Of a stretch of 64,000 nt of DNA, positions 3,057 to 20,932 are shown in pieces. Made by a program: the position numbers and the translations under genes. The stretch lies in contig JAJDDQ010000066.1 in NCBI GenBank assembly GCA_029260215.1, positions 1 through 64,000 on the forward strand, written 5' to 3'. The stretch is from Phycisphaerae bacterium. Lineage in GTDB: Bacteria > Planctomycetota > Phycisphaerae > UBA1845. Below the pieces are notes generated by a model. The model was given only the letters and a program-made list of their open reading frames with translations, searched no databases and was not told where the DNA came from. Numbering within the stretch: position 1 is the first letter of the stretch; every line of letters begins with the position of its first letter.

Positions 3057-3857
3057 CTACTTGGAAGGCAGCGGCGATCGGGGTCTGGTTTTGGTCCGCC
3101 CGGGTCGTGGGGAGGCGGTGGGGATGGCATCTTCGAGACGGAATTCGCTGTCGATCATCACATGCAACTCGGGCGTGTTTCGGACGACCATTGAGTTGGA
3201 TTCATAGACTATATTGATGCTGCCCACGCCGCCGTTTTCGAGCCAGGAATCCGGGGCAATGTTGTCGATCATGATCTTGCGAATTCTGTCGAGGCGTTCT
3301 TCCCGAGTGTAAGTCGCTTCTTCCACAAGCTCGCTAATGCCTGCGATTGTCTGTATGGGGTACAAGTCGGGCATGTCCAGTGTGACATTGGGCAGCCCGT
3401 AGACTTTGGTGTACAAATCTTTTTCGAAATCTTTGCGCGTGGAGATGCGCAACACGCCGCCTATCGCGCGCCAGCGGATTTCGTCCGACAGTTGGTCCAA
3501 CACTTCCGAGAGAACCTGGCTGACGGTGGTGTTGGTCATGGTGAGCGTTACGGCTGAGTCGGGGGTTACGTTTTCTTTGCGCAGCGTTCGCCAGACCGGC
3601 ACAACGCTTTCAAAACCCTGATCGCGAAGCCACTTGAAGATTTCCTTGACGGGAACCTCGTCCCAGCGGATGTCGCTGACGGGCTTGCGGAGTACATCGC
3701 GAATCGTCGGCAATTTCGTCGAAGGCGGCGCGAGGGGTTTCGGGCGTTTGATTGTAGGACTCTCGGGTTGGTCGTGGTTCGGGGGGGATTGCGCGGAGGC
3801 GGCTGACGTAAGTGTGAGAAGTGTGCCGGAAAACAACAAGCAATTGCGGAAAACCAT
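3057..3857 (-). CDS. Secreted protein with an STN/secretin N0-like domain
   Basis: A 266-residue exported protein. The ATG at 3857 is preceded by GGAGTGGAAAGT and opens a signal peptide (MVFRNCLLFSGTLLTL, cleavage expected near ASAQ, residues 20-23); the reading frame extends 40 codons further upstream, but that part does not look like protein. Residues about 60-150 have the pattern of the short N-terminal domain of secretins and TonB receptors: a VSDIRWDEVPVKEIFKWL opening, then TLTMTNTTVSQVLSEVL and GGVLRIST. The rest (VYGLPNVTLDMPDL onward) resembles the linker seen in planctomycete secretin-like proteins, but no secretin pore domain follows. The C-terminus is Pro/Arg/Lys-rich. Function unknown; a periplasmic scaffold role is only a guess. 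Confidence 0.7.
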   Translation of the reverse strand: MVFRNCLLFSGTLLTLTSAASAQSPPNHDQPESPTIKRPKPLAPPSTKLPTIRDVLRKPVSDIRWDEVPVKEIFKWLRDQGFESVVPVWRTLRKENVTPDSAVTLTMTNTTVSQVLSEVLDQLSDEIRWRAIGGVLRISTRKDFEKDLYTKVYGLPNVTLDMPDLYPIQTIAGISELVEEATYTREERLDRIRKIMIDNIAPDSWLENGGVGSINIVYESNSMVVRNTPELHVMIDSEFRLEDAIPTASPRPGRTKTRPRSPLPSK

Positions 3858-6607: not shown

Positions 6608-8575
6608 TCAGCGGCCGGTTTCGAGTTCGTTCAGTTTGGCCTGGAGGTTTTGTTGGGCTTGCGGTTGATTCAGGCGGTGGGCTTGTTCCACTGCGTCCCT
6701 GAGAACGGCGGTCGCTTCCGCACGCCGGCCCATCGCAGCCAACGTGTTGGCGAGATGATAGGCTGCGTTAAATGCGGCTGGGTCGATTTCGAGCACGCGC
6801 CGGTAGTGTTCGACAGCCGACGCGGGGCGCTTCAGCATCAACATAGTACCAGCCAGGTTGTAGTGGGCTGCTTTGTGGTTGCGGTCGAGGCTTAATGCGT
6901 CTTGCAGCGATGTTCTTGCCAGCCTGAACTTGCCCATTCGGGCGTATGCGGCACCGAGGGCGGTCTGGTGATCCGCGTTACGCGGTTGTAATTCGACGGC
7001 TTGGTGCAGGAGTCGCAATGCTTGTTCGAATTGACCTTTTTCCACGAGTGATGCACCCAACCCTGCCAGCGCGTGTGCGTTTTCCGGTGCGCCGCGCAGC
7101 GCGGTTTCGAATTGCTTTTCCGCCGACTTCCATTGGCCTTGGTCTGCGTAGATTTGTCCGAGCTTGGTGTGAAACGCCGGGGCGACGCCCTCGGGTTTAT
7201 CGAAACCGATGACGCGGTTCGTTACCTGGATGCCGACGGCGACGGCAAGCGCGGCGGCCAGGAGAATTTTGTACTTGCGGCCTTCCCGGTGACGGGCGCT
7301 GTAGATGAGCGCCGCCGACGCGAGGGCGATGACCGGGGCGGCGGGGAGGCGATAGCGCGGCGAATACCAGAACACGCAAACGACGATGAACGGCACGATC
7401 AGCATCGCCCATTCAAGCCCGTTTCGCCGGCGGATCGGTTTTACGGAAATCAAGCCGAGAATCGCGAAGGGAATCAGAAACGCGGTCGGAATCGGTGCCA
7501 GCGACCATGCCCGATCCAGTCCTGAATCGCGCTCGATTGTCGGGACGAATATGTCTCCGTAGTGACGCGCGCTCAGGAACCAGTAGGCTTTTCGCGCTGC
7601 CAACTCGATCGCACGGAGCGGATCCTCCCGCCAGTATGCGACGACCTGGTCACGGTAATAGGCATCGACGGCTCGCCATGTGGGTGTTTTGCCTGTGGCG
7701 GCTTCGTACGCGCGAAATGTGTCGATGTGCTGGCGATTCTTGTCGGTGGAGACGCCCGGTGCAGCCGTATAGGTGCCGTTTGCGTTTTCGTTGTTCCCGT
7801 GTCGAAGCGTCAGCCCGCCGTGCGCGGACAGCGGTAAAAACTCGCCGCAAACGTAGGCGTTGTACGCGGCGGCAGGGGCGATCGCCGCCAACCATGCGGC
7901 ACACGCGACGCCTGCGGACGCGATACGCCTGCGATTGGCGGACATCGCGACCCAAATGATGACCGGCGGGGCGAGGAATACGAGCGATCCGTTGGTGTGG
8001 CAGGCGATTCCGAACGCGACGCCGGTCGCTGCCCAGGCGGCGAACGACTGTCGATCCAGCGCACGCACCGCGGCGGCCCAGGCGATGGTGACTGCCAGCA
8101 GTTGGACTGAGCTTGTCAGGATGCGGAAGGATGCGGTCGCTGGCTCCACCATGAGCAGGAACACCGTCGCACCGAGCAATCCAATCGAGGCGTTGAACCG
8201 CTTGAGGCCGATCCACGCTATCAGGACAGCCGTCGCGATGTTGAACACGATTTGCATGCCGTAGACGCTGCGCAGCCCGCCGCCGAGCGCGCGGATGGCT
8301 CCCAATATGTATGGATAGAGCGGGGCTGAGAGGAACGGTGTGTCTCCGATCAGGCGGCCGTCCGCGTATTGCTCAGCCAGGGTCCAATAAAACCTGCTGT
8401 CGGCGATCGGATGCGAAGCGAGCGGATTGTTGCTGCAATACTCGAAGAGCATCAAGCCACGCGCGAGCAACGCCGCAAAACAGACCAATAACAGCCACGC
8501 CCGTGGGAAGCGGGGCGGCTGAGAGTTTGGCTGATTATCGGGCAATGGCGATGTTGTGCTTTCTGTTTCGTTCAT
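6608..8575 (-). CDS. PMT-type glycosyltransferase with C-terminal TPR repeats
   Basis: A 655-residue protein in two parts. Residues 20-440 are a multi-helix membrane domain of the GT39/ArnT-like (PMT_2) class, which transfers sugars from polyprenyl-phosphate donors at the periplasmic face. The first loop carries the acidic ADSRFYWTLAEQYADG motif expected at the catalytic position, followed by the APLYPYILG stretch. Residues about 460-640 are at least five TPRs (for example LGQIYADQGQWKSAEKQFE, then ALAGLGASLVEKGQFEQAL), a fusion common in planctomycetes. The gene stands alone, divergent from the histidine kinase across 255 bases. Acceptor unknown: protein, lipid A or a polysaccharide are all possible. 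Confidence 0.75.
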   Translation of the reverse strand: MNETESTTSPLPDNQPNSQPPRFPRAWLLLVCFAALLARGLMLFEYCSNNPLASHPIADSRFYWTLAEQYADGRLIGDTPFLSAPLYPYILGAIRALGGGLRSVYGMQIVFNIATAVLIAWIGLKRFNASIGLLGATVFLLMVEPATASFRILTSSVQLLAVTIAWAAAVRALDRQSFAAWAATGVAFGIACHTNGSLVFLAPPVIIWVAMSANRRRIASAGVACAAWLAAIAPAAAYNAYVCGEFLPLSAHGGLTLRHGNNENANGTYTAAPGVSTDKNRQHIDTFRAYEAATGKTPTWRAVDAYYRDQVVAYWREDPLRAIELAARKAYWFLSARHYGDIFVPTIERDSGLDRAWSLAPIPTAFLIPFAILGLISVKPIRRRNGLEWAMLIVPFIVVCVFWYSPRYRLPAAPVIALASAALIYSARHREGRKYKILLAAALAVAVGIQVTNRVIGFDKPEGVAPAFHTKLGQIYADQGQWKSAEKQFETALRGAPENAHALAGLGASLVEKGQFEQALRLLHQAVELQPRNADHQTALGAAYARMGKFRLARTSLQDALSLDRNHKAAHYNLAGTMLMLKRPASAVEHYRRVLEIDPAAFNAAYHLANTLAAMGRRAEATAVLRDAVEQAHRLNQPQAQQNLQAKLNELETGR

Positions 8576-8830
8576 ATGTTGCGACCGACGTCAACCTTGT
8601 TGCATAGTGTGTTTGGCGTTGTCCATTGCGACGTGCATGTTACCGGAACCTTGGGCGACGTACACATCGAGAGGCGTTCGTCTGTCTTGGCAATCGTTAT
8701 CGGTTGACACGTTGGGACGGGCGTGGTCGTGCCGATCAAGCCTGCGCTGCATGCGAACGATAGTACCGAGGGATATCGATTGTCGGCTGCGCGCGAGTAG
8801 TGCGCTGCCCGTTTCCTAAGACTTCACGAC

Positions 8831-10759
8831 ATGCGTGTGAATTGGACAAACATTCGTGCTTTTCTCACTGCGGAGGAAGTTCCGCGCTGGATCGGTCTGT
8901 CGCTGACGGGTCTGCTTATTTTCGGACTTGGAGCGGTTTCGATCGGCGTGCTGGACGATGCCAGGGTTCGCTCTGCTGAGCGATTGCGCGACACGGCTGA
9001 TTCGTCGGTGGAATTGTTGGCTTCTTCCCTGTCGCGGATTCCTGCGGAACAAGCCGATCAGACGCAGCTCGCGCTACGCGAGTACACGCGTTGGTATCAG
9101 TGCGACACGTTGCGCGTGGTGAGTGAGGACGGTCGCATTCTGTGTTCGATCGACAACGCGGAAATCGGAACGTCGGCCGCGCTTTCCCCCGATGTTCGTC
9201 CGGCTGCCACGTTGCAGCGGCTGACGCGGGATATGGGGGCGGAGTCCGGCGAACAGCCCAAACGAATGGTTGTTGTCGGGTTCGATCAGCATCTTGATGA
9301 GCACGGAACGGGCGAGGAGCGCACGAGTCGACGCTACTTGCAAAGCGTTCTGACGCAGCGGGCGACGGTCGGGCTGGCAGACGCGGGGATGGGGACTTCG
9401 ATTGCAGCCGTTACGGTCATCGTGTTGTTCCTGCTGGTGTATCGCGCGTTGCGCCGGCACTTCCGCAGCATGTCGCTTATTTCCGAGAACCTGATGTCGC
9501 GTGGTGACCAGATCGAATCCGACCTCCACTCGTTGCGTCTGACGGACATCCACGGCGCGCTGGCGGACCAGTGGAACCGGCTGGTGGACCTGGTCGAGGA
9601 GATGTCCGCCGACACGCGCCGGGCATCTGCGTCAGCGGAATTGACAGCCGTTTTGCAAAAATCGGGTCGCGGCGAACTGGCTGAGGTGGTCAACGCCGTG
9701 CCGGACGGCTTGATTCATGTTGCCGACGATTGGCGTGTCAACTTTGCCAATTCGATGGCCCAGCGTCTGTTTGAAATATCGATCGCGGAGGGCGAATCGC
9801 CGCGGCTTGACGAGCTTCAGGCTAGTTCTGTTGGGCAGGTAATTATCGAGCGATTGAACGAGAGTCGGGGACCGGACGGCGAAGCTGTTGCGATGTCTTC
9901 GGTGGTCGAGACAGACGGCGGGGAAAGTCACTACCGAGTCCGCCTCGTGCCGTTCGCACGCGGCAAGCGAGCAGGCCAATGCGTGATCACCATTACGGAC
10001 ATAAGCCAGCAAGTCCGGGCCGACAAGGCGTCCGAGGAGTTCATCGCACAGTTGACGCATGAGCTGCGCACACCTTTGGCGAACATTCGGGCGTACACGG
10101 AAACGCTTTCCAGCGGGATGTTCGATGACCCGAAGGTGATCGCCGACTGTTACAACGTGATTACCAAGGAAACGCGACGTTTGGCGCGGTTGATTGATGA
10201 CATTCTCAGTGCGTCTCAGCTCGAGGTCGGAACGATTCAGATTCACGCGGACAATGTCGATTTGGGGGCGTTGTTGACCGAGGCTGTGCGCGATCTGCGC
10301 GGGCTGGCGGATGAGAAGCAGCTCGACATGCAGCTCTCGTTGCCGTCGAAGATGCCGACGTTGCAGGCGGACCGCGACAAGCTCGCCGTGGTCGTCAACA
10401 ACCTGCTCGGCAATGCGCTGAAGTATACACCCGGCGGCGGGGAGATTCGAGTCGGTTGTCAGGTCAGTGCGGACGTTGTGCTGATTACGGTGAAGGACAC
10501 CGGGATCGGAATCGACTCCGCGGACAACGAACGGGTCTTTGAAAAATTCCAGCGCGGATCGAATCCTGTCGTCGAGGAGATTGAGGGCACGGGGATCGGC
10601 CTCGCAACGGCGCGGGAGATCGCGAGACGCCACGGTGGCGATATCGAATTGATGAGCGTACCCGGTGAGGGATCCACCTTCATAGTTCGCTTGCCGAATA
10701 CCAGTAACTCTTCGGGTACCGGGGCTTCCACAGCACCCAACGCGACGGGAGAGGTTTGA
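8831..10759 (+). CDS. Membrane sensor histidine kinase
   Basis: A 642-residue hybrid-free kinase. Two membrane helices (about residues 21-41 and 188-205) enclose a periplasmic sensor of roughly 145 residues. A HAMP-like linker and a PAS-like segment (about 280-395) come next. The dimerisation helix QLTHELRTPLANIR has the phospho-acceptor His410. The ATPase domain shows the N box NNLLGNALKYTPGGG, G1 DTGIGI and G2 EGTGIGLATA. Its stop codon overlaps the receiver gene by one base (TGATG), so the receiver is the likely partner. The signal is unknown. Together they head a run that leads into c-di-GMP and pilus genes, suggesting control of surface behaviour. Confidence 0.92.
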   Translation: MRVNWTNIRAFLTAEEVPRWIGLSLTGLLIFGLGAVSIGVLDDARVRSAERLRDTADSSVELLASSLSRIPAEQADQTQLALREYTRWYQCDTLRVVSEDGRILCSIDNAEIGTSAALSPDVRPAATLQRLTRDMGAESGEQPKRMVVVGFDQHLDEHGTGEERTSRRYLQSVLTQRATVGLADAGMGTSIAAVTVIVLFLLVYRALRRHFRSMSLISENLMSRGDQIESDLHSLRLTDIHGALADQWNRLVDLVEEMSADTRRASASAELTAVLQKSGRGELAEVVNAVPDGLIHVADDWRVNFANSMAQRLFEISIAEGESPRLDELQASSVGQVIIERLNESRGPDGEAVAMSSVVETDGGESHYRVRLVPFARGKRAGQCVITITDISQQVRADKASEEFIAQLTHELRTPLANIRAYTETLSSGMFDDPKVIADCYNVITKETRRLARLIDDILSASQLEVGTIQIHADNVDLGALLTEAVRDLRGLADEKQLDMQLSLPSKMPTLQADRDKLAVVVNNLLGNALKYTPGGGEIRVGCQVSADVVLITVKDTGIGIDSADNERVFEKFQRGSNPVVEEIEGTGIGLATAREIARRHGGDIELMSVPGEGSTFIVRLPNTSNSSGTGASTAPNATGEV

Positions 10760-11157
10760 TGGCGCAATTGCTTCTGATTGAGGATGACGCACACATGATT
10801 CGTGTGCTTTCGATGTGGCTGACGCGAAACGGTCACGAGGTGGTTGAGGTCGGCGACGGGATGTCCGGGCAGGAGGCCATCGAGGAGCGATCGTTCGACC
10901 TGGTTGTTTCTGACGTGAACATGCCGCGCATGAACGGCATTCAGTTTGTGGAATGGCTGCGTGTGGAAAAGAAGTCGAACGTGCCGGTCATCATGCTCAG
11001 TTCGCGATCGGATCAGGCCAACATCGACGAGCGCCTGGGTGAATTGGGGATAAACATTTATCCGAAACCGTTTTCTCCGTCGCGGCTTGTCGAAGCGATT
11101 GAAACCCGGCTTGAAGAGGCAGCCACAGTCAAGGGGGACTCCGCGCTCGGCGGTTGA
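10759..11157 (+). CDS. Single-domain response regulator (CheY-like receiver)
   Basis: A 132-residue stand-alone receiver. The acidic pocket is Asp9/Asp10, the phospho-acceptor is Asp52 in SDVNMPRMNG, the switch serine lies in MLSSRS and the conserved lysine in YPKPFSP. No output domain follows, so it must act by binding another protein, most simply the HD-GYP protein encoded seven bases downstream. The ATG at 10759 is chosen over a TTG one codon earlier because it makes the usual TGATG overlap with the kinase stop. Confidence 0.93.
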   Translation: MAQLLLIEDDAHMIRVLSMWLTRNGHEVVEVGDGMSGQEAIEERSFDLVVSDVNMPRMNGIQFVEWLRVEKKSNVPVIMLSSRSDQANIDERLGELGINIYPKPFSPSRLVEAIETRLEEAATVKGDSALGG

Positions 11158-11164
11158 TAGACGC

Positions 11165-12481
11165 ATGACCCACTCTACAGGCCAAGAACTGGTGCGCGAG
11201 CGTGTCACCGAAACACTCTCTCCGCTGACCGCGCAACGCGAACACTTCAAGTCGGTCGAACCCGGAGTGGCTGGAGACTTGGAATCGGCGCTGGATCAGG
11301 TGGCTTCTCGGGTTGAGGTGATCGCCCGGGAAAACGAGGGCATGGCCTGCGATCTGCTGCGATGTTACGAGCAGCTTTCGGTCGTGTCCGATGTAACGCG
11401 CTACATGTTAATTCTGCGCACCGAACTTGAGGTGATGGAATTTTTCGCGATGCGGCTGCGTGACACCTACCCCGACTGCCTCGTGGGCGTAGCTTGGCCG
11501 GAGGAAGGTAATTATGCGGTTAAGGAAGGTTTTCCCGCACTTCCGAAGTGGCTAACAGCGTCGATACGCGATTGTCGCGAACGTCGACGTGTGCTGGCTG
11601 CTAATTCCGGTGAGTCTGCCGGGATCGCGCCGGACGGTGCGTCGCTGTATCACCAGGAGGCGGTGACTGCCCCCGTATTCGCAGGCCCGGTTTTCGTCTG
11701 CGCGCTGGTCCTGTGGCGGCGATCCGAGACGGAGTCCGTTTCCAGTTGGGATAGCGGTGATGTGCAGCTCTTTGATTCGCTCTGCTCGTTCTGTGGCGAC
11801 GCGATGCGAAACTTCCGTCTCGTGCAGGAATTACAGGAAGTTGCGATGGAGACTGTGCGCACGCTGGTCAATGCCGTCGATCAAAAAGACCCGTATACAT
11901 CGGGGCATTCCAATCGCGTGGGGTATTACGCCAAGTTGCTTGCTACGGAACTTGGTTTGGAGGCCGACGCGCTGCGTGCGCTGCAATGGTCGGCGCTGAT
12001 GCACGATATCGGCAAAATCGGAATCCGCGACGATGTGCTCAAAAAAGCCGGCAAGCTCACCGAAGAGGAATTCGATCACATCAAGGAGCATCCGCAGCGA
12101 GGACACGCCATCGTTCGGGAAAACCCGCACATGCAGGCTTCGCTCGACGGCGTGCTGCACCACCATGAACGATACGACGGCAAGGGTTATCCGAGTGGGT
12201 TGGCGGGCGAACAAATTCCGCTCCAGGCGCGGATCATTCAGACAGCCGACATTTTCGACGCGCTGACGACGAACCGCTCTTACCGCGGCGCATTTTCGTG
12301 GCAAGAGGCGTTGAAGATACTTGAGGAGGAATCGGGTACGGTCGTCGATCCGCTCCTGTGCTCCATTTTCGCGTCCATGATGCGCCGATATTACGAGCAG
12401 AATCCGACGGCGTTCGATGCAATCGGGAACCCGGGTGATCAACCAAATCTCTGTGAGGATTCGGAACCCACCCAGCCATAA
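11165..12481 (+). CDS. HD-GYP domain c-di-GMP phosphodiesterase
   Basis: A 438-residue cytosolic protein. Residues about 70-220 resemble a GAF sensor fold; residues 225-410 are an HD-GYP domain, a family that hydrolyses cyclic di-GMP. The metal-binding residues are intact: GHSNR (His248), HDIGK (280-284), HHHERYDGKGYP (332-343, including the GYP signature) and the ADIFDALT segment. The ATG at 11165 is preferred because the open frame upstream of it lies inside the receiver gene. With no receiver domain of its own, it probably takes input from the neighbouring CheY-like protein. Expected effect: lower local c-di-GMP near the pilus ATPase encoded 1.7 kb downstream. Confidence 0.9.
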   Translation: MTHSTGQELVRERVTETLSPLTAQREHFKSVEPGVAGDLESALDQVASRVEVIARENEGMACDLLRCYEQLSVVSDVTRYMLILRTELEVMEFFAMRLRDTYPDCLVGVAWPEEGNYAVKEGFPALPKWLTASIRDCRERRRVLAANSGESAGIAPDGASLYHQEAVTAPVFAGPVFVCALVLWRRSETESVSSWDSGDVQLFDSLCSFCGDAMRNFRLVQELQEVAMETVRTLVNAVDQKDPYTSGHSNRVGYYAKLLATELGLEADALRALQWSALMHDIGKIGIRDDVLKKAGKLTEEEFDHIKEHPQRGHAIVRENPHMQASLDGVLHHHERYDGKGYPSGLAGEQIPLQARIIQTADIFDALTTNRSYRGAFSWQEALKILEEESGTVVDPLLCSIFASMMRRYYEQNPTAFDAIGNPGDQPNLCEDSEPTQP

Positions 12482-12494
12482 GGAGTTGCCCGTC

Positions 12495-13811
12495 ATGATG
12501 GACATCATGTTGCCGTGGTTTCCCATCGTATTGAGCTCAGCCATCGGGGCGAGACTCGTTGGTCGGTCGAAGGCACCGTGGCTAGGCGTCACGTGCGCAC
12601 TCTATTTCGCCGTCGTCGTGCAGATGACGACGCGCGTACCTGTTTGGGCCGATGCCGCCATGTTGGCTTCCGTTCTCGCCGGGGCTGCGTCCATAGTCGG
12701 CATGGCCGAGTGGTCGGGGCGGGGCGTGCCTCAAAACACGACCGCGATATCGAATAGGTCGCCCGGTTCAGTCCCGTCCGATGCGTTGGCCTCTGATGTA
12801 TCGGAAGCGATACGCCGATTCGACGACTGGATCGAAATCAACCGCTACGTTCCCGACATGTGGTCGTCCTTTGATGAGACGATCCGCGACCTGCTTTATC
12901 GAACGTGCGGCGCGACGCATATGAAACCGTATCGCATTCTCAGCGAGGGCGATGCGATGATTCCCCTCCGCGAAATCGGAGAGGCTGACGCCGGCGACGC
13001 GATATCGTCGCGTAAGGGTATCCTCGGCCACGTCGCGACCACGGGCCGACCGTTTTACATATGGGATAAGCCGCAGGGCGAACTCGTCCACGCCCTCGCG
13101 GATCAATCGGCTGTCACGCCGGCCTGGTGCTTTCCCATTCGTTCCGGGGGTCATGTGATCGGCGTGGTCAGCATCGGGAACATCGAACAGAACAACACAA
13201 ACGAGCCGCCGTCTGTGGCGGTGCTGCGCATGTGGGAACTGCTCGTCGCGCAATTCTGGACAACGCTTGTCGAGGTTCGACGAAGTTGCTCAGCCGCGCG
13301 CATGGAACCGATCGGGCAGTTGCTCACACGGCAGGCGTTTCTCGACGAAGTTCATCGAAAATGTACGGAATCAAGCCGTCCGTCGGAACCGGTAGCAATG
13401 TGCGTGCTGGCGGTCGAAGGGCTGCGAACGCTGCACGATCAGGGGCGTTGGGAGGCAGCCGACGATGTTGTGATGGAGATTTGCGACGCTCTGCGTGAGC
13501 GCGTGAGGCCGGATGATTTGCTCGGTCGTTTTGACGACAGCCGAATCCTGATTCTGCTGCACCGGGTTGATTCGGAGCTTGCGGCGCTGATTGCGGAACA
13601 GTTGACGCACCGCCTCGCGAACCTGCCGATCTTCGCGACGCTTCCGGATGTTTCGGTGGAAATGCGATGCGGCGTGGCGGGAAGCGGAACGTCCGTTCCC
13701 GATCCTGAACGCTTGCTGAAGACGGCGATCGCGCTTTGTCGGGAGGCCCGCGATCTGCACACGCGAATCGTGACGGACGTTGGGTCGAGATCAGCCGAGG
13801 TGACGTCATAA
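12495..13811 (+). CDS. GAF plus degenerate GGDEF protein (probable c-di-GMP receptor)
   Basis: A 438-residue protein with two N-terminal membrane helices (about 5-22 and 30-70), a GAF-like domain (about 125-262) and a GGDEF-fold domain (about 275-435). The catalytic GGDEF signature is replaced by DDSRI (residues 347-351), so diguanylate cyclase activity is not expected. The RxxD inhibitory site just before it is retained (Arg338-Asp341, five residues upstream), as in GGDEF proteins that have become c-di-GMP receptors. AAGGAG ends nine bases before the ATG at 12495. It sits between the HD-GYP and STAS genes. The receptor role is inference from the motif state. Confidence 0.82.
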   Translation: MMDIMLPWFPIVLSSAIGARLVGRSKAPWLGVTCALYFAVVVQMTTRVPVWADAAMLASVLAGAASIVGMAEWSGRGVPQNTTAISNRSPGSVPSDALASDVSEAIRRFDDWIEINRYVPDMWSSFDETIRDLLYRTCGATHMKPYRILSEGDAMIPLREIGEADAGDAISSRKGILGHVATTGRPFYIWDKPQGELVHALADQSAVTPAWCFPIRSGGHVIGVVSIGNIEQNNTNEPPSVAVLRMWELLVAQFWTTLVEVRRSCSAARMEPIGQLLTRQAFLDEVHRKCTESSRPSEPVAMCVLAVEGLRTLHDQGRWEAADDVVMEICDALRERVRPDDLLGRFDDSRILILLHRVDSELAALIAEQLTHRLANLPIFATLPDVSVEMRCGVAGSGTSVPDPERLLKTAIALCREARDLHTRIVTDVGSRSAEVTS

Positions 13812-14143
13812 AAATCGAAACAAGAACTGTAGGCACCGTAAAGGTTTATGTGCCTGATGACGCGCTGGCAGACGCCGCCGCCGAGGAGTTCACGACGCGG
13901 CTCAAAGGCGAGCTTCGCGGCGTCAATCCGCGCGTGGTCATCGGCATGGAGGAAGTCGGGTACGTGGACAGTGTTGCTTTGGAAGGACTGCTGGACATGG
14001 CGGATGAGCTGAGCGGTCGCGGCGCGCAGCTCAAGTTGGCCGGTGTGACCCCGACGGTACGCGAGATTCTGGAGATCACCGGATTGAGCGGAAGATTTCA
14101 GTTTTTTGACGGTGTGGATACAGCCGTACGGAGCTTTCTCTAA
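13736..14143 (+). CDS. STAS-domain protein (anti-sigma factor antagonist type)
   Basis: The STAS fold covers nearly the whole protein: YVDSVALEGLL holds the position of the regulatory serine of SpoIIAA-like antagonists, followed by KLAGVTPTVREILEITGL. Such proteins bind anti-sigma kinases or act in partner-switching complexes. The start is a puzzle. The domain begins just after the upstream stop at 13809, yet the only standard start in frame is TTG at 13736, inside the upstream gene and without a ribosome-binding site. GAGGTGA is instead well placed before an ATA at 13808 that overlaps the upstream TAA. Coordinates use the TTG; the true start may be near 13808. Three bases separate it from the pilus ATPase gene. 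Confidence 0.8.
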   Translation: MSGGPRSAHANRDGRWVEISRGDVIKIETRTVGTVKVYVPDDALADAAAEEFTTRLKGELRGVNPRVVIGMEEVGYVDSVALEGLLDMADELSGRGAQLKLAGVTPTVREILEITGLSGRFQFFDGVDTAVRSFL

Positions 14144-14145
14144 CC

Positions 14146-15912
14146 ATGATTGGTCAGAGCGCACGATTGGGCGAGCAACTGCTTGCCGACAACGTCATCA
14201 CGGCGGACCAGCTCAAGGAGGCGCTCTCGCGTCAGTCCACGACGGGCGACCGTCTTGGGGCTGCCCTGATCGACATCGGTGCGATGACCTCGACCGCGCT
14301 GGTCAACGCGCTGGCCAAGCGCATGGAAATCCGCGGGTGCGTGCTGCGTCACGGGTTGATCGACCCGAAGGTGGCCAAGTGCGTCCCCAAAGATGAGGCT
14401 GAGCGGCTCAAGGTGTTGCCGATGTTTCGCGTGCGCGACGAGTTGACCGTTGCGATGGTCGATCCGCTGTCGCTGCCGACGATCGATCGCATCCGCGGTC
14501 TGACCGGTTGCGAAGTGAGGCCCGTACTCTCCCTCGAAATCAACATAGACGAGTTTCAGCAGAAGTACCTCACCAAAGAGGTGACGGTCGATTCCTTCAT
14601 GGCTTCGATCGAGGAATCGGACGTCCACATCGATCAGATTGAGGTTGCCGAAGATGGCGGCGTAACCGATCTCGACCAGTTGATCGAGGGCAGCCCGGTG
14701 ATCAATCTGGTCAACCTTGTCGTGCTTACCGCCATGCGCGACGGAGCCAGCGATATTCACATCGAGCCGTCGCGCAAGGCGACCCACATTCGGTATCGCA
14801 TCGACGGCCACTTGCGCGAATTCTTCAAACCTCCGCAGGGATTGCACGCTGCGATCGTCTCGCGCATCAAAGTCATCGGGCGGATGGACATCGCCGAAAA
14901 ACGCCTGCCGCAGGAAGGGCGCGTACACCTGGTGGCCGACGGTCGCGAGGTTGACCTGCGCATCTCCAGCATGCCGACTGTTCTGGGCGAAAAGATCGTG
15001 ATTCGCATTCTGGACAAGAGCGACCTGAGCTTTGAGCTTCAGGATTTGGGGCTGGTGGGCGACGATTATGATCAGGTTATCAAAGCGCTGAAATGTCCAT
15101 ACGGGCTGATTCTCGTGACCGGCCCGACCGGCAGTGGCAAGACGACGACGCTCTATTCCGCGCTGGAACTTCTTAACGACCACACGAAGAACATCGTTAC
15201 GGTAGAGGATCCCGTCGAATACCAATTGCCGATGATCACTCAGATCCAGGTCAATGAAGGGGTCGGCCTGACATTCACACGAGCGCTGCGCTCGATTCTG
15301 CGACAAGACCCCGACGTGGTCATGATCGGTGAAATGCGCGACGCCGACACCGCGCGCGTCGCGATTCAAGCCGCTCTCACTGGTCACCTTGTGCTTTCGA
15401 CGCTGCACACCAACGACTGCCCGGGCGGCGTGGCTCGACTGCTCGATATGGGCATCGAACCTTACCTGATCGCCTCATCGGTGATCGGTTTCGTAGCCCA
15501 GCGACTTCCACGACGCATCTGCAACGCGTGCAAGACCTCTTACTACCCGTCCCCGGAGCTGCTGAAAACGGTGAACTGGGACGAGCGTACGAACGAGCTG
15601 TTTCACCACGGCGAAGGTTGTCGCGAGTGTCACATGACCGGCTTTCGCGGGCGAACGGGCATCTACGAAGTCATGATGCTGGACGCCGGTCTCAAAAATC
15701 TGATTCAATCCGGGGCGCCCGAAACTGATTTGCGTACGTACCTCGCACGCACGGGTTGGCGGACGTTGCGCGAGAAGGCGCTCGATGCCGTCGATCGCGG
15801 CGAATCCTCGCTTGAAGAAGTGCTCCGCGTGACGCGCTCCGAAGCCGTCGAAATTCCCGAGCGCACGCCGGTGCGTTCAACCGGCGGAATTCCGTCGGAG
15901 GTGGCAGGATGA
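14146..15912 (+). CDS. PilB/GspE-type assembly ATPase with MshEN c-di-GMP-binding N-terminus
   Basis: A 588-residue ATPase that would power pseudopilus or type IV pilus extension. The N-terminus has two 24-residue RLG motifs (starting Arg7 and Arg36) separated by exactly five residues, the layout of the MshEN domain that binds c-di-GMP in MshE- and PilB-type ATPases. The core has Walker A GPTGSGKTTT, Asp box EDPVEY, Walker B DPDVVMIGEMRD, the His box HTND, and a four-cysteine zinc element (CNAC ... CREC). Length and order fit PilB/GspE. Its stop overlaps the pilC-like start (ATGA). The gene follows a c-di-GMP hydrolase and a c-di-GMP receptor-like gene, consistent with control of the motor by c-di-GMP. 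Confidence 0.93.
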   Translation: MIGQSARLGEQLLADNVITADQLKEALSRQSTTGDRLGAALIDIGAMTSTALVNALAKRMEIRGCVLRHGLIDPKVAKCVPKDEAERLKVLPMFRVRDELTVAMVDPLSLPTIDRIRGLTGCEVRPVLSLEINIDEFQQKYLTKEVTVDSFMASIEESDVHIDQIEVAEDGGVTDLDQLIEGSPVINLVNLVVLTAMRDGASDIHIEPSRKATHIRYRIDGHLREFFKPPQGLHAAIVSRIKVIGRMDIAEKRLPQEGRVHLVADGREVDLRISSMPTVLGEKIVIRILDKSDLSFELQDLGLVGDDYDQVIKALKCPYGLILVTGPTGSGKTTTLYSALELLNDHTKNIVTVEDPVEYQLPMITQIQVNEGVGLTFTRALRSILRQDPDVVMIGEMRDADTARVAIQAALTGHLVLSTLHTNDCPGGVARLLDMGIEPYLIASSVIGFVAQRLPRRICNACKTSYYPSPELLKTVNWDERTNELFHHGEGCRECHMTGFRGRTGIYEVMMLDAGLKNLIQSGAPETDLRTYLARTGWRTLREKALDAVDRGESSLEEVLRVTRSEAVEIPERTPVRSTGGIPSEVAG

Positions 15913-17153
15913 TCATTGAGTACGAAGCCGTCGACAACGCGGGCAAGAGTATATCCGACACCATCGAAGCCCCAGACGTGCGCGCAGCCGTCGAAATGCT
16001 TCGCAAGAAGAATCTGTTCGTGACCCACGCGGGCAACTCCTCCGAAAATAGCAAAGCCAAGCCTCGCAAAAAGAGCAGTGACGCTTCGCAGAACGGGACG
16101 AAGCCGCTGTCGCGTGTCCGGTTGTCGGGCAAGCAGCTCACCATGTTCACCCGGCAGATGTCCATGATGCTCACTTCGGGCAGCGGAATCGTTCCCGCGT
16201 TGAATACGGTGAGCCGCCAGTTCGTCAAAGAGGAACATTCCCAGTTGATGCGTGCGCTGTGCAACGACATGGAAGAGGGGGTTCCGTTCGCAGACGCGCT
16301 TCGCAAGTACCCGCGCATCTTCGATTCCTCGTACTGCGCCGTCGTGGCTGCCGGCGAAGCCAGTGGAACTTTGAACGAAATGATCGCGCGTCTGTCTGTA
16401 TTGGTCGGAAAGCGGCGTGCCATGCGCAACAAGGTATTGGGTGCGTTGATCTATCCAGCCTTGCTGACGACGCTCAGCACAGCCATCACCGGTGTCCTGG
16501 TATTCTTCGTGCTGCCGCGTTTTGGAGATATGTTCGACACGCTGGGTGTCGATCTGCCCGCCTCTACCGCGATGCTTCTTGAAGTGTCGGCCATGGCGAA
16601 GGCCAACCTCTACGCCACGATTTTCAGCGGGCTGGCTTCGTTCGGCGGCGCGGTCTACCTGATCAAATCCGACAAAGGCCGCACACTCGGCGCTGCTATT
16701 CTGACCCGGCTTCCGATCGTGAAGCGCCTGGTCTATGGAATGATACTCGGGGAAACCTTTCGTATTCTCGGCATGCTCATCGAAGCCAGGGTGGGCGTGC
16801 TGGACGCGATCGACTTGGTGAAAGGCGTTACGCGGGAGAAGAAATTTCAAAACCTCTACGCCGCGATGGAAACGGAAGTGACGTCCGGTAGTGATATCAG
16901 CCGTGCGCTCGAAAACTCCGGCATCGTCCCACCCTACATCACTCACGCGGTGGGTACGGGTGAAAAGAGCGGGAACCTCGGCGGCTCGATGTCATACGTG
17001 GCCGACATCCTCGACGAAGACAACACTGAATTACTTAACACGCTGACCAAACTAATAGAGCCGATCATTCTCATCGTAATGGGATTCGTCGTTGGAACGG
17101 TGGCTATTTCACTATTCCTGCCCATGTTTGACGTAACAGCCGCTGCACAATAG
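15909..17153 (+). CDS. PilC/GspF-type inner-membrane platform protein
   Basis: A 414-residue protein with the duplicated T2SSF domain. The first copy (about 75-200) includes LTMFTRQMSMMLTSGSGIV and the glycine-rich VVAAGEASGTLNEM; the second (about 275-405) includes the corresponding ITHAVGTGEKSGNLG. Three membrane helices are placed as in the family. The N-terminal domain (residues 1-60) is the usual short YEAVDNAGK cytosolic module. It anchors the ATPase and pseudopilins. The ATGA overlap with the ATPase gene shows translational coupling. Confidence 0.93.
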   Translation: MIIEYEAVDNAGKSISDTIEAPDVRAAVEMLRKKNLFVTHAGNSSENSKAKPRKKSSDASQNGTKPLSRVRLSGKQLTMFTRQMSMMLTSGSGIVPALNTVSRQFVKEEHSQLMRALCNDMEEGVPFADALRKYPRIFDSSYCAVVAAGEASGTLNEMIARLSVLVGKRRAMRNKVLGALIYPALLTTLSTAITGVLVFFVLPRFGDMFDTLGVDLPASTAMLLEVSAMAKANLYATIFSGLASFGGAVYLIKSDKGRTLGAAILTRLPIVKRLVYGMILGETFRILGMLIEARVGVLDAIDLVKGVTREKKFQNLYAAMETEVTSGSDISRALENSGIVPPYITHAVGTGEKSGNLGGSMSYVADILDEDNTELLNTLTKLIEPIILIVMGFVVGTVAISLFLPMFDVTAAAQ

Positions 17154-17170
17154 GTCTGGAGAACGGTCCC

Positions 17171-18283
17171 ATGTTTGCCGTGTTGCAACGCGGAAGTCTG
17201 AAACGAACCCGCTCGCCCATAGGGCTGGACGTACAGCCGATCGGCGCGCGTGCTGCCCAACTGGTAACCGAGGGGAACGTACTGCGCATCGCGCGCGTGA
17301 CCGGCTGGAAATCTCGCAACGGCGAATCGGGGCCGGAATTATCCGCTGGATTTGTCCAGCGCGTTGCGCGATCGCTCGTCCAGGACGGTTTCAAGGGCCG
17401 AAGTCTTGTCGCCGGCCTGAGCAGCCCTGATGTCGAGCTGCACGCAATGGAGATTCCCTGTGAGGGGGAAATGCAGGACGAGGAGAAATTCAGCGAGGCT
17501 GTCCGCTGGGAACTGGAACGCGTTGCGACGTTGTCCGGCGGCGACACTGTGACAAGTTCGTGGCTGTTGCCCAAGAGTCGAGCCGTCCGTACGACCGCGA
17601 TCGGTGCCATCGCCTCAGCCGAACGCGTGCGCGCAATCGACACGCTCGCCAACGCCATCGGTCGCGATTGCGAACGCGTTGACAGCACCGCCTGTGCGCT
17701 CGCCCGGCTGGGGGCTGTCATTCGACGAAATCCACAACACCGTGTCGGCGATATCTGGAGTGTTCTCGATGTCGGTGGCCGGCTTTTGCGGCTCGTTGTA
17801 GTCATTGACGACACACCGATTCTCGTGCGGACGCTGTCCGAAGGGGGCGAATCCTGGACAGGTGAGATCGCATCATCTTTGGGCATATCCGAAGAGAACG
17901 CGGAATTCCACAAGCACGACCACGGCATAGTCAAGCCCGGCGAAGCCCACGACGAAGCCCAGGCGCGCATCTCAACAATGATATTCGACATCGTCAAACC
18001 CGCACTGATCCGCGTGGTCGATGAGATCGAACGATCCTACGAATACGCCATGCGCTGTTTTCCCGATCGCGCCGCGGGCGGTGTGATCGTTGTCGGAGGT
18101 GGTGCGAATCTCAAGGGCCTCGATCGCTTCCTGGCCAGAAAACTGGGCGTCGCCGTGACAACGCTGGACGACATAGTACGCGAGCCGGACGCCACATTGG
18201 CCGTGCAGCCCAGCCAAAAACTGTCCATCAACGAATTCGGCTGCGCGATCGGACTCGCAATCAGGCCGGAGGACGAAGCATGA
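17171..18283 (+). CDS. PilM-like actin-fold protein of the pilus assembly complex
   Basis: A 370-residue cytosolic protein. It opens with an actin-like IGLDVQPIGARAAQL segment and ends with the nucleotide-binding GGGANLKGLDRFLARKLGV, matching PilM, the ATP-binding platform that recruits PilN. Placement immediately before PilN- and PilO-like genes supports this. AGGTCTGGAGA precedes the ATG. The stop overlaps the next start (ATGA at 18280). Confidence 0.85.
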   Translation: MFAVLQRGSLKRTRSPIGLDVQPIGARAAQLVTEGNVLRIARVTGWKSRNGESGPELSAGFVQRVARSLVQDGFKGRSLVAGLSSPDVELHAMEIPCEGEMQDEEKFSEAVRWELERVATLSGGDTVTSSWLLPKSRAVRTTAIGAIASAERVRAIDTLANAIGRDCERVDSTACALARLGAVIRRNPQHRVGDIWSVLDVGGRLLRLVVVIDDTPILVRTLSEGGESWTGEIASSLGISEENAEFHKHDHGIVKPGEAHDEAQARISTMIFDIVKPALIRVVDEIERSYEYAMRCFPDRAAGGVIVVGGGANLKGLDRFLARKLGVAVTTLDDIVREPDATLAVQPSQKLSINEFGCAIGLAIRPEDEA

Positions 18284-18921
18284 TTGCGATCAATCTGATC
18301 AATCCGGGAACGCTCAGACGCCGCCGCAGCAAACGACGCATCAAGCAATGGGTCGGCGTGTTCGTCATTACAGCTGGCGTCGTGGCTGTTCCTGTGAGCT
18401 TCGAACTTTCTCGGGAACATCAGGTACAGGTGCTGCGGGCGGAGCGTGTTGAGATCGCCGCCCAAAACGAAGCGACACGCCAAATGCTCAACGAGCAGGG
18501 AATCGAAATTCGCAACCTCGAAGCCCAGGCGAATCGTGCTCAGGCGTTACGCGGCAAACGCAGCTGGTCAAAGCTGCTTGGCATTGTCGGACGTGTGCTC
18601 CCGCGAGAGGTTTGGCTGGCGTCTTTGAATACCGAACCTGCGCGACCCACCGGCTCCAGTCGCGACATGAGTTCCATACCAGCCGTCCGCCCCGGAGCTT
18701 CGTCTTCCACCGGCAAGGATGAGGAACCACGCGTGGTGACCATGAAAGCACCTCGCTCGCTACGCATCGAAGGCTACGCACTCGATCACGATAACCTGTT
18801 CGATTACACGTCGCGATTGAAGGCGATGCAGATTTTCACGGACGTCAAACTCAAAAAAGCGATGGAGGAGCCTGTGTTCAGCGGCAAGGCCATTCGATTC
18901 AACCTCGTGTGCAATTGGTGA
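18280..18921 (+). CDS. PilN-like alignment-complex protein
   Basis: A 213-residue protein opening with MIAINLINPGTLRRRR, the short cytosolic tail by which PilN-type proteins bind PilM. One membrane helix (about 17-36), a coiled-coil stretch (40-85) and a ferredoxin-like periplasmic domain follow, containing LPREVWLASLN and a C-terminal RIEGYALD segment. The domain is interrupted by a low-complexity insertion (about 125-160). Coupled to the PilM-like gene by an ATGA overlap. Confidence 0.82.
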   Translation: MIAINLINPGTLRRRRSKRRIKQWVGVFVITAGVVAVPVSFELSREHQVQVLRAERVEIAAQNEATRQMLNEQGIEIRNLEAQANRAQALRGKRSWSKLLGIVGRVLPREVWLASLNTEPARPTGSSRDMSSIPAVRPGASSSTGKDEEPRVVTMKAPRSLRIEGYALDHDNLFDYTSRLKAMQIFTDVKLKKAMEEPVFSGKAIRFNLVCNW

Positions 18922-18925
18922 TATC

Positions 18926-19474
18926 ATGAAAGACAAGCGAATTTGGATAGCGGACATCATCGGACTTGTCGCGACACTAAGCCTGCTCGGTGGTGGCGGT
19001 TGGTACGTGTTTGCAAAGCCGGATACCGCCTCGGCACGCATGGCCGCACTGGCTGGCGAAGTCGCACAGCTCAACACGGATCGTATTCAGTTGCAGTCCG
19101 TTCAGGATCAATTCTCTAGGCAGCGCCGCGATCTGCTGGAGCATGCGAAAGAGATGGGCCGGCTGCCGGATGACTCCCCTCTGGATCAGGAGTTGAAGCG
19201 CATTACCAACCTCGCCGGTGCGAACGACATCAAGATTCTCGAAGTCACGCCATTGGCCGTCGTGCGGTATCCGAACGTCCTGTCCACCCAGTTCAGTCTC
19301 AAGACCGAGGGCACTTTTGCGGATTACGTGCAGTTTTTCGAATCCTACGAACAAAGCGAATCATGGTCCGACATGACGCACATCGCGATGGCTCCCGCTA
19401 ATCCGGGCGGCGACGCGACCAACGCGATGCGCCGTGGTGAGTTGACCGTCAGCTTTTTCTCGCTGTTTCAATAG
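18926..19474 (+). CDS. PilO-like alignment-complex protein
   Basis: A 182-residue protein with one N-terminal membrane helix (about 6-28), a predicted coiled coil (35-75) and a PilO-like periplasmic domain (about 80-180; for example LKTEGTFADYVQFFESYEQS). PilN and PilO form a heterodimer bridging the inner membrane and periplasm. It starts four bases after the PilN-like stop. The assignment rests mainly on order and architecture. Confidence 0.78.
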   Translation: MKDKRIWIADIIGLVATLSLLGGGGWYVFAKPDTASARMAALAGEVAQLNTDRIQLQSVQDQFSRQRRDLLEHAKEMGRLPDDSPLDQELKRITNLAGANDIKILEVTPLAVVRYPNVLSTQFSLKTEGTFADYVQFFESYEQSESWSDMTHIAMAPANPGGDATNAMRRGELTVSFFSLFQ

Positions 19475-19495
19475 TGCGCGGAGCCTGCGAACCTC

Positions 19496-20041
19496 GTGAC
19501 TCGGCAAAAAAAACAACTCTACGGCGCAGTACTTGGCCTCGGTGCGATCGTTCTGCTCATCGACCGAATGTCGGCGTTGGCAGGCAGCGGGCCGAGCGAA
19601 TCGGCAGCAGCCGTTGTGCAACCGACCGGCTTGCTGACGCTGGATTCCGTAACGGGCGATCTCGTCTCCGTGGCAGCCGCACCGTTTCCCAGGGATATTC
19701 CCGACTTGGCCGGCACGTCTCCGCTGCGAGACGTGTTCGCGCCGACGGATCTCGTGAGGTCCAAGTTGTCGTCGGAGGCTGACGGCAATCCGGGTCGCGA
19801 GGCAGGAAAGCCCGCGCGCCTCGGGCCTGAAGAATTCGCCGCATCGCATCATCTGAACGGCGTCATGCGCACCGATTCAACGAGTGTTGCCGTGGTTGAC
19901 GGAAAATGGCTTCGCGTCGGCGACAGCGTCGAAAGCTGCGAATTATCGGAGATGGAGGCTACGTCCGTGAAATTCCGCTGTGCGACGTTCGAAGTCGAAT
20001 TGTCCGTCATGCCGAGTGCTTCGTCCGATCCTGCACCTTAA
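19496..20041 (+). CDS. PilP/GspC-like periplasmic linker protein
   Basis: A 181-residue protein starting at GTG 19496. One membrane helix (about 7-27) is followed by a low-complexity stretch and a small beta domain at the C-terminus (LNGVMRTDSTSVAVVDGKWL, then GDSVESCELSEM). That pattern is the homology-region fold of PilP and GspC, which link the inner-membrane complex to the outer-membrane secretin. Confidence comes from position after the PilO-like gene and this beta motif. No lipobox is present, unlike PilP, so it is closer to GspC in layout. Confidence 0.65.
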   Translation: MTRQKKQLYGAVLGLGAIVLLIDRMSALAGSGPSESAAAVVQPTGLLTLDSVTGDLVSVAAAPFPRDIPDLAGTSPLRDVFAPTDLVRSKLSSEADGNPGREAGKPARLGPEEFAASHHLNGVMRTDSTSVAVVDGKWLRVGDSVESCELSEMEATSVKFRCATFEVELSVMPSASSDPAP

Positions 20042-20126
20042 ATCTAAAGGCGTACCACACGCGCGACGATACCTCCAATCGCAGCGTTAGAACTTGTGTT
20101 GAAGAAGTCTTTGAACGGATGGTTTA

Positions 20127-20612
20127 ATGAGTATCAAGAACAAATCGAAGGGCTTCAGCCTGGTTGAGTTGGTCATCGTCATCGTGATTATCGGGATCAT
20201 TGCCGCGATCGCCGTACCGCGTATCAGTCGAGGCGCCGCCGGGGCAGGGGCCAGTGGATTGCGCGGCGATCTCTACGTTCTGCGTAACGCGATCGACCTG
20301 TACGCAGCCGAACACAACGGTGCCTACCCAAGCGGAACGGATGCAACGTTCAAATTGCAGATGACAATTTATTCGGACGATTCAGGCGCAACCAATGCCG
20401 TCAAGGACACCACGTACAAGTGGGGCCCGTACCTCGTCTCCGTACCCGCATTGAAAGTCGGTGAGGGTGCCAACAACGGCAAGGGTTCCAACAACACCGG
20501 CCCTGCAGCGCTGGCCACGGTCGGCTGGATTTACGACCCACTAAACGGCAAGATTACCGCTAATTCCGGCACCGCAGCTGACGATTCGACGACTTTGTTT
20601 ACAACATACTAG
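20127..20612 (+). CDS. Type IV pilin/GspG-like major pseudopilin
   Basis: A 161-residue class III prepilin. A short basic leader ends in KG, with cleavage expected at Gly9/Phe10 of KGFSLVELVIVIVIIGII and the conserved Glu at mature position 5. A small C-terminal domain contains a GspG-like LRNAIDLYAAEHNGAYPSG segment and ends without a disulphide pair. It is the last gene of the run and is followed by a strong terminator. No prepilin peptidase or secretin gene lies in the window. Confidence 0.93.
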   Translation: MSIKNKSKGFSLVELVIVIVIIGIIAAIAVPRISRGAAGAGASGLRGDLYVLRNAIDLYAAEHNGAYPSGTDATFKLQMTIYSDDSGATNAVKDTTYKWGPYLVSVPALKVGEGANNGKGSNNTGPAALATVGWIYDPLNGKITANSGTAADDSTTLFTTY

Positions 20613-20645
20613 AAAGCAGCGGGGGACCGCTTCCCATGTGAGTTT

Positions 20646-20685
20646 CCGCCGGCAGGGCCAACGTGCTCCTGCCGGCGGTTTTCTT
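20646..20685 (+). terminator. Intrinsic terminator closing the pilus operon
   Basis: A perfect 11-bp stem (CCGCCGGCAGG with CCTGCCGGCGG) with an 11-base loop is followed by TTTTCTT, 34 bases after the pseudopilin stop. Confidence 0.93.
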
Positions 20686-20778
20686 ATGTATACCGGGACG
20701 CTCTGCGTGTTAAAGCGAAAGAAAACAAGAAGACGATCGGTCCCTCGCACGCTCCTGTTCGAGCGCGAACGGATTCGT

Positions 20779-20807
20779 TTGACTTTCCCGGAACGATTCG
20801 CTACAAG
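20779..20807 (+). promoter_or_regulatory. Possible promoter of the S1-domain gene
   Basis: TTGACT-N17-TACAAG: a good -35 and a moderate -10, about 125 bases before the ATG at 20933 and just after the pilus-operon terminator. Confidence 0.45.
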
Positions 20808-20932
20808 GGTTTTACGACTGTAAGAAGTCTTGGGCGGCGTATTGGAACCGGACTGCCGGTCACGTCGCCGCTTTCGGCTCTGGCACGAGAGAATACGTGA
20901 AATCCGCTCGCTCACCCCAATCGGATGCAATC

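Follow-up and report, generated by a model that had tools for sequence, protein, structure and literature searches.

An open question in cyclic di-GMP (c-di-GMP) signalling is how the nucleotide reaches one particular machine as opposed to the whole cell. Here, we approach this question through a locus in which a putative sensor, eraser, reader and motor form a single conserved gene row. The locus lies in a 64,000-nucleotide stretch of DNA from a Phycisphaerae bacterium (contig JAJDDQ010000066.1, positions 1 to 64,000; in the following, the window). Its 12 genes are located on the plus strand between 8831 and 20612 with small gaps, and encode, in this order, a kinase, a receiver, a GAF-HD-GYP protein, a membrane-GAF protein with a dead GGDEF domain (the pseudo-cyclase), a STAS protein, an ATPase, a platform protein, PilM, PilN, PilO, a small protein and a pilin. 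With intermediate confidence, we suggest that the row forms a single operon whose sensory/c-di-GMP cassette would control the assembly motor of a type IV pilus/type II secretion-like machine. As to how c-di-GMP would act on this motor, we tentatively propose two unlike readers in the same operon, i.e. a membrane-bound pseudo-cyclase with a preserved inhibitory site and the MshEN domain of the ATPase, with STAS as a coupling phospho-switch and with the kinase, receiver and HD-GYP protein setting the signal.

An earlier note on this DNA had described 8831-17153 as a c-di-GMP circuit, in which the kinase and receiver set local c-di-GMP through the HD-GYP protein, which then acts on the motor. This interpretation is partly supported by our analysis. 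From open reading frames and Pfam, the kinase, receiver, HD-GYP, dead GGDEF and STAS genes run into the ATPase and platform genes on the same strand as described; the unit does not end there, but continues to 20612 (PilM to pilin). Because sensor to motor are encoded in one row, local control of a pilus by c-di-GMP should be testable with a handful of purified proteins. Moreover, natural losses of single parts (the pseudo-cyclase four times, the HD-GYP protein once) provide ready comparisons.

A conserved cassette ahead of a motor

Because the pseudo-cyclase is specific to the gene row, it was used as the bait for relatives. Of 40 close relatives, 36 gave a match, with weak hits to GGDEF domains in general counted among these; at E <= 1e-30, the protein is present in 77 of the 114 genomes of the order. 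Within the class, it is confined to one order (70/397 genomes), and the nearest named relatives are Phycisphaerae metagenome-assembled genomes (Planctomycetota). Among 77 related loci, 60 have the six genes from kinase to ATPase in the same order on one strand, and contig ends cut most of the others; this gene order spans several families of the single order. Because of this recurrence, the six-gene row is, as judged from gene order, not a chance arrangement. The cassette genes precede the motor genes in nearly every genome of the order that has the motor (uncultured Planctomycetota). In family f8, which belongs to the same order, the pseudo-cyclase is absent and the ATPases are all distant (<=44% identity). 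Thus, a dedicated c-di-GMP cassette ahead of the motor appears well supported by conservation. The genome encodes four other MshEN ATPases, and none of the cassette regulators is found near them.

The conserved gene order in relatives also bears out the earlier view of the locus as one unit. From the kinase to the platform gene, gaps and overlaps measure 1-13 bases. An internal promoter splitting the regulatory and motor halves had been named as a finding that would speak against this view. In a consensus scan of the plus strand of 8400-20900, which covered sigma-70-like sites only with other promoter types outside its reach, no such site was found, and terminator-like sites in the row occurred in roughly the number found in shuffled sequence.

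Candidate readers and their putative partners

The pseudo-cyclase (12495..13811, with the start inferred from relatives) begins with three hydrophobic helices, which are followed by a GAF and a GGDEF domain (GAF_2 and GGDEF both above cut-off), and is without an EAL domain. It had been considered a dead bystander. Dead it is: DDSRI is present instead of GGDEF (13533..13547), and a GG(D/E)EF motif is found in 0 of 78 homologues, 71 of which carry Arg in place of the catalytic Glu. A bystander role, by contrast, is less likely, and the protein is an overlooked receptor candidate. In the homologue alignment, the RxxD motif of the inhibitory site, R338-P-D-D341 (13506..13517), is preserved at the canonical distance (R in 73/78 and D in 76/78 homologues); R338 and D341 are the 15th and the 4th most conserved of 151 GGDEF-domain columns, for which the median is 0.47, and the family profile and the T. 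maritima cyclase 4urs align gap-free at RxxD. An AlphaFold2 model (pLDDT 89.0) has the GGDEF fold at residues ~263-430, matching PleD and SadC, among others, with Z-scores of ~20-23. Of the PDB sequences, the degenerate GGDEF domain of FimX matches best; PelD is not among the sequence or fold matches listed. At the level of sequence, a kept RxxD together with a lost active site marks a cyclase that has become a receptor, of which PelD is an example. Because the active site is gone from all homologues and RxxD nevertheless persists, the pseudo-cyclase is probably a better candidate for the c-di-GMP receptor than the ATPase, and the putative main sensor. In the former substrate region of the same protein, W319 (13449-13451) is Trp in 77 of 78 homologues and His in the T. 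maritima cyclase.

The second candidate reader is the ATPase (14146..15912), a PilB/GspE-type assembly ATPase (T2SSE, 448.6 bits) with an MshEN N-domain (45.9 bits), for which the PilB and the GspE equivalog models both score below cut-off. Two RLG motifs of 24 residues each are found exactly where the earlier note had placed them, i.e. at residues 7-30 and 36-59 with a five-residue spacer (14164..14322), and the NCBIfam model NF053729 ‘c-di-GMP_motif’ matches residues 7-58 with 53.1 bits, above its cut-off of 38. Thus, the motif layout of MshEN domains that bind c-di-GMP stands, but two residues of the motifs do not follow it. In motif I, which ends in Q30, the turn Gly is replaced by N16; Gly is present in 61 of 70 rows, and the Asn is seen in the window alone. 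At the end of motif II, R59 is present instead of Gln. The Gln residues that close the two MshE motifs bond to ribose and phosphate, and Gln61 is in contact with the ligand (PMC5013675). The last residue of motif II is R in 45, Q in 14, K in 5, H in 5 and G in 1 of the 70 rows, the window included, with Arg being the rule in family f1 and Gln being common in family f4, many members of which have Gln at the end of both motifs. The Gly of both half-sites and several Leu are invariant (70/70). In an alignment to solved MshEN domains, R59 aligns with Arg62 in the GSPII-A domain of Thermus PilF, which is non-binding and has Arg at this position (PMC12002112). Taken together, binding of c-di-GMP by the ATPase is plausible but not secure: its N-domain qualifies well as an MshEN candidate, though one of the half-sites is in doubt.

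Upstream of the two candidate readers are the genes that would set the signal. The sensor histidine kinase (8831..10759) has a PAS-like region followed by HisKA and HATPase_c domains, both above the Pfam cut-off, and the His and Glu of its HisKA box are present in 67/67 ungapped rows. The stand-alone receiver (10759..11157; Response_reg, 81.8 bits) starts at ATG 10759, while the listing gives TTG 10756; its acceptor Asp (codon ~10912-10914) is likewise present in all 67 ungapped rows. Seven bases past the receiver gene, at ATG 11165, begins the gene for a coiled coil-GAF-HD-GYP phosphodiesterase (11165..12481; HD_5, 134.8 bits; HD at ~12002-12007 and GYP at ~12185-12193). This enzyme had been called intact, and its catalytic motifs (HD, Lys, HHE and GYP) are indeed kept in 71-72 of 72 sequences. 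The AlphaFold2 model (pLDDT 87.6) has its closest fold in PmGH (4mcw), a GAF-HD-GYP c-di-GMP enzyme. Because the closest solved sequence is the cyclic GMP-AMP (cGAMP) phosphodiesterase V-cGAP3, the HD-GYP protein could also act on cGAMP.

As the earlier note had pointed out, the unit encodes no active cyclase. Because the genome encodes six intact GG(D/E)EF cyclases elsewhere, together with 11 HD-GYP domains and no EAL domain, a supply of c-di-GMP from outside the unit is credible. The same genome has a degenerate GGDEF-HD-GYP fusion (G000:C63:97220-98323; L074, L129), and a fusion with HD-GYP on C47 carries an intact GGDEF (L069, L130). We rejected an origin of the cassette by splitting of a GGDEF-HD-GYP fusion, as the fusions in this genome have the opposite domain order.

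The STAS protein (~13808..14143; Pfam STAS, 57.2 bits) resembles anti-sigma-antagonists, and its Asp-Ser (Ser codon ~13970-13972) is kept in 73/73 sequences. A four-base start-stop overlap, NTGA, joins the gene of the pseudo-cyclase to that of STAS in 59 of 72 relatives, which suggests coupled translation and a partnership of the two proteins. In the window, the overlap (13808-13811) reads ATAA and leaves STAS without a standard start; therefore, STAS would start either at ATA 13808 or further upstream, at TTG 13736, unless the assembly contains an error. The ATPase gene follows STAS after 2 bases. A literature search returned no paper that links a STAS domain to PilB.

In the model that we propose, the kinase would phosphorylate the receiver, which would alter the activity of the GAF-HD-GYP phosphodiesterase. 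As a consequence, the local level of c-di-GMP, which would come from cyclases located elsewhere, would fall or rise. This change would be read by the membrane-anchored GAF-pseudo-GGDEF protein in the manner of PelD, at the inhibitory site that it has retained. STAS, with a gene that overlaps the pseudo-cyclase gene and lies immediately before the ATPase gene, would relay the state to the ATPase, possibly by phosphorylation of the conserved Ser. A second reader may be present in the ATPase itself, in the form of its MshEN domain, whose second half-site is weakened in the family. The sequence shows the gene order, the domains and the state of their key residues; what we infer are all links between the proteins, the binding of the nucleotide and whether the pilus would be promoted or inhibited.

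Natural losses and competing readings

On the ATPase tree, we count four losses of the pseudo-cyclase, two of RxxD and one of the HD-GYP protein. The pseudo-cyclase is missing while STAS and the ATPase are kept in L152 (G084), L151 (G005), L155 (G061) and L154 (G035), the last of which is also without the HD-GYP protein. Because the motor is kept in all four, the pseudo-cyclase is not essential. Where it alone is lost, the HD-GYP protein and MshEN remain, which fits the ATPase as a candidate second reader. In the three genomes of family f2, the HD-GYP protein is gone, together with RxxD in two and with the whole pseudo-cyclase in the third, while MshEN stays; this pattern would fit a functional pairing of the HD-GYP protein and the pseudo-cyclase in this one clade. 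In genus g54 (L126), there is no HD-GYP gene between the receiver and the pseudo-cyclase, RxxD is kept, and a second set of kinase, HD-GYP and pseudo-cyclase is present elsewhere. A second HD-GYP-pseudo-cyclase set away from the ATPase is also found in L120 (G052), L121 (G048) and L122 (G047); in L121 and L122 this set includes a kinase, and in L121 it is followed by a pilin-like open reading frame (3150-3656, minus strand).

Several observations speak against the proposed model. The four losses of the pseudo-cyclase occurred while STAS, the ATPase and the pilus genes stayed. The loss of the HD-GYP protein coincides with loss of RxxD in a single clade, and operons L123 and L124 have lost RxxD and kept the HD-GYP protein; we therefore discarded the correlation of losses as proof of the pairing and regard it as suggestive only. 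R59 argues for weak or no binding of c-di-GMP by the MshEN domain. In the pseudo-cyclase, R373 is at the spacing of PelD R402, yet this residue is Arg in 28 of 78 homologues. Finally, the unit is without a gene for a Ser kinase that could act on STAS.

In a first rival reading, along the lines of the earlier note, the MshEN domain, set by the HD-GYP protein, would be the sole receptor and the dead GGDEF domain a scaffold or relic. The match to the c-di-GMP motif over the NCBI cut-off, the invariant half-site residues, the family f4 members with both Gln and the survival of the HD-GYP protein and MshEN in three of the four lineages without the pseudo-cyclase are all in line with this idea. We nevertheless consider it unlikely, given that R59 replaces the equivalent of Gln61 as in the non-binding GSPII-A domain (PMC12002112), that the window has N16, that MshEN is fully retained in the clade without the HD-GYP protein, and that conservation of RxxD at 94-97% would be unexpected for a relic. 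These same residues of the ATPase, the conservation of RxxD and the f2 clade, in which HD-GYP and RxxD were lost and MshEN stayed, would instead be accounted for if c-di-GMP acted through the pseudo-cyclase only and MshEN were structural and non-binding. We regard this, too, as rather improbable: the rest of the MshEN motif is well kept, the relaxed MshEN motif permits Arg at the last position (PMC5013675), and the Gln-to-Arg change was never tested singly in the PilF study (PMC12002112).

Most doubtful in our view is that the neighbourhood reflects shared expression only, with the signalling genes acting on targets other than the motor. The contacts between the proteins are deduced, single members of the row can be lost, and the few genomes with a second kinase-HD-GYP-pseudo-cyclase set away from the ATPase would agree with such independence. 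However, the gene order is kept in 60/77 loci although the pseudo-cyclases of relatives are 24-50% identical to that of the window, the pseudo-cyclase and STAS genes overlap in most relatives and STAS is 2 bases from the ATPase gene in the window, and the other MshEN ATPases of the genome do not have these neighbours.

Motor genes and comparison with known systems

The type IV pilus/type II secretion set at the locus includes the assembly ATPase, platform, PilM-N-O and pilin. The platform protein PilC/GspF (15909..17153; T2SSF, 165.5 bits) is followed by PilM (17171..18283; PilM_2, 52.1 bits), PilN (18280..18921; PilN, 29.8 bits), a PilO-like protein (18926..19474; PilO, 21.0 bits, just below the cut-off of 22), a small protein at the PilP position (19496..20041), which is without an NCBIfam match and conserved in position, and a GspG-like pilin with a GFSLVE prepilin signal (20127..20612; TIGR02532 above and TIGR01710 below cut-off). 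The order from PilM to the pilin, and with it the synteny of PilM, PilN and PilO, is identical in relatives. No secretin gene is present at the locus; the four secretins of the genome are all encoded on other contigs.

The ATPase shares with V. cholerae MshE and Thermus PilF the PilB/GspE-type architecture and the N-terminal pair of 24-residue RLG motifs, five residues apart. It differs in the Arg that ends motif II and the Asn at the turn Gly of motif I, and in that the operon itself encodes dedicated regulators. The HD-GYP protein resembles PmGH in having a GAF domain followed by an HD-GYP domain with the catalytic motifs kept; unlike PmGH, it has a long N-terminal coiled coil, and a separate receiver is encoded alongside. 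In the SiaABCD system, SiaC controls the cyclase SiaD. There, as here, a phospho-switch-type protein is encoded beside a GGDEF protein; in the window, however, the GGDEF domain is dead, the switch-type protein is a Pfam STAS protein and the unit is without a SiaA/SiaB-like partner.

For the pseudo-cyclase, two systems are relevant. PelD binds c-di-GMP through RxxD and another Arg (PMC7112168) and has, like the window protein, membrane helices, a GAF domain and a GGDEF domain with a dead active site and an intact RxxD. By contrast, the window protein is encoded in a pilus operon with signalling and pilus genes instead of pel genes as neighbours, and the third contact Arg (R402 in P. aeruginosa PelD) is not conserved across its family. 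FimX regulates the pilus ATPase PilB (PMC5595344), and the FimX-PilZ-PilB system also ties a degenerate GGDEF protein to a pilus assembly ATPase; FimX, however, binds c-di-GMP via its EAL domain and its GGDEF domain is without RxxD, while the window genome has no EAL domain. As analogies, neither the likeness to PelD nor that to FimX proves binding by the pseudo-cyclase. A search of literature titles for Planctomycetota or Phycisphaerae pili with c-di-GMP or HD-GYP returned no title on such an operon. MshE, FimX and PelD are each known; to have such parts combined in one conserved operon would be a new variation.

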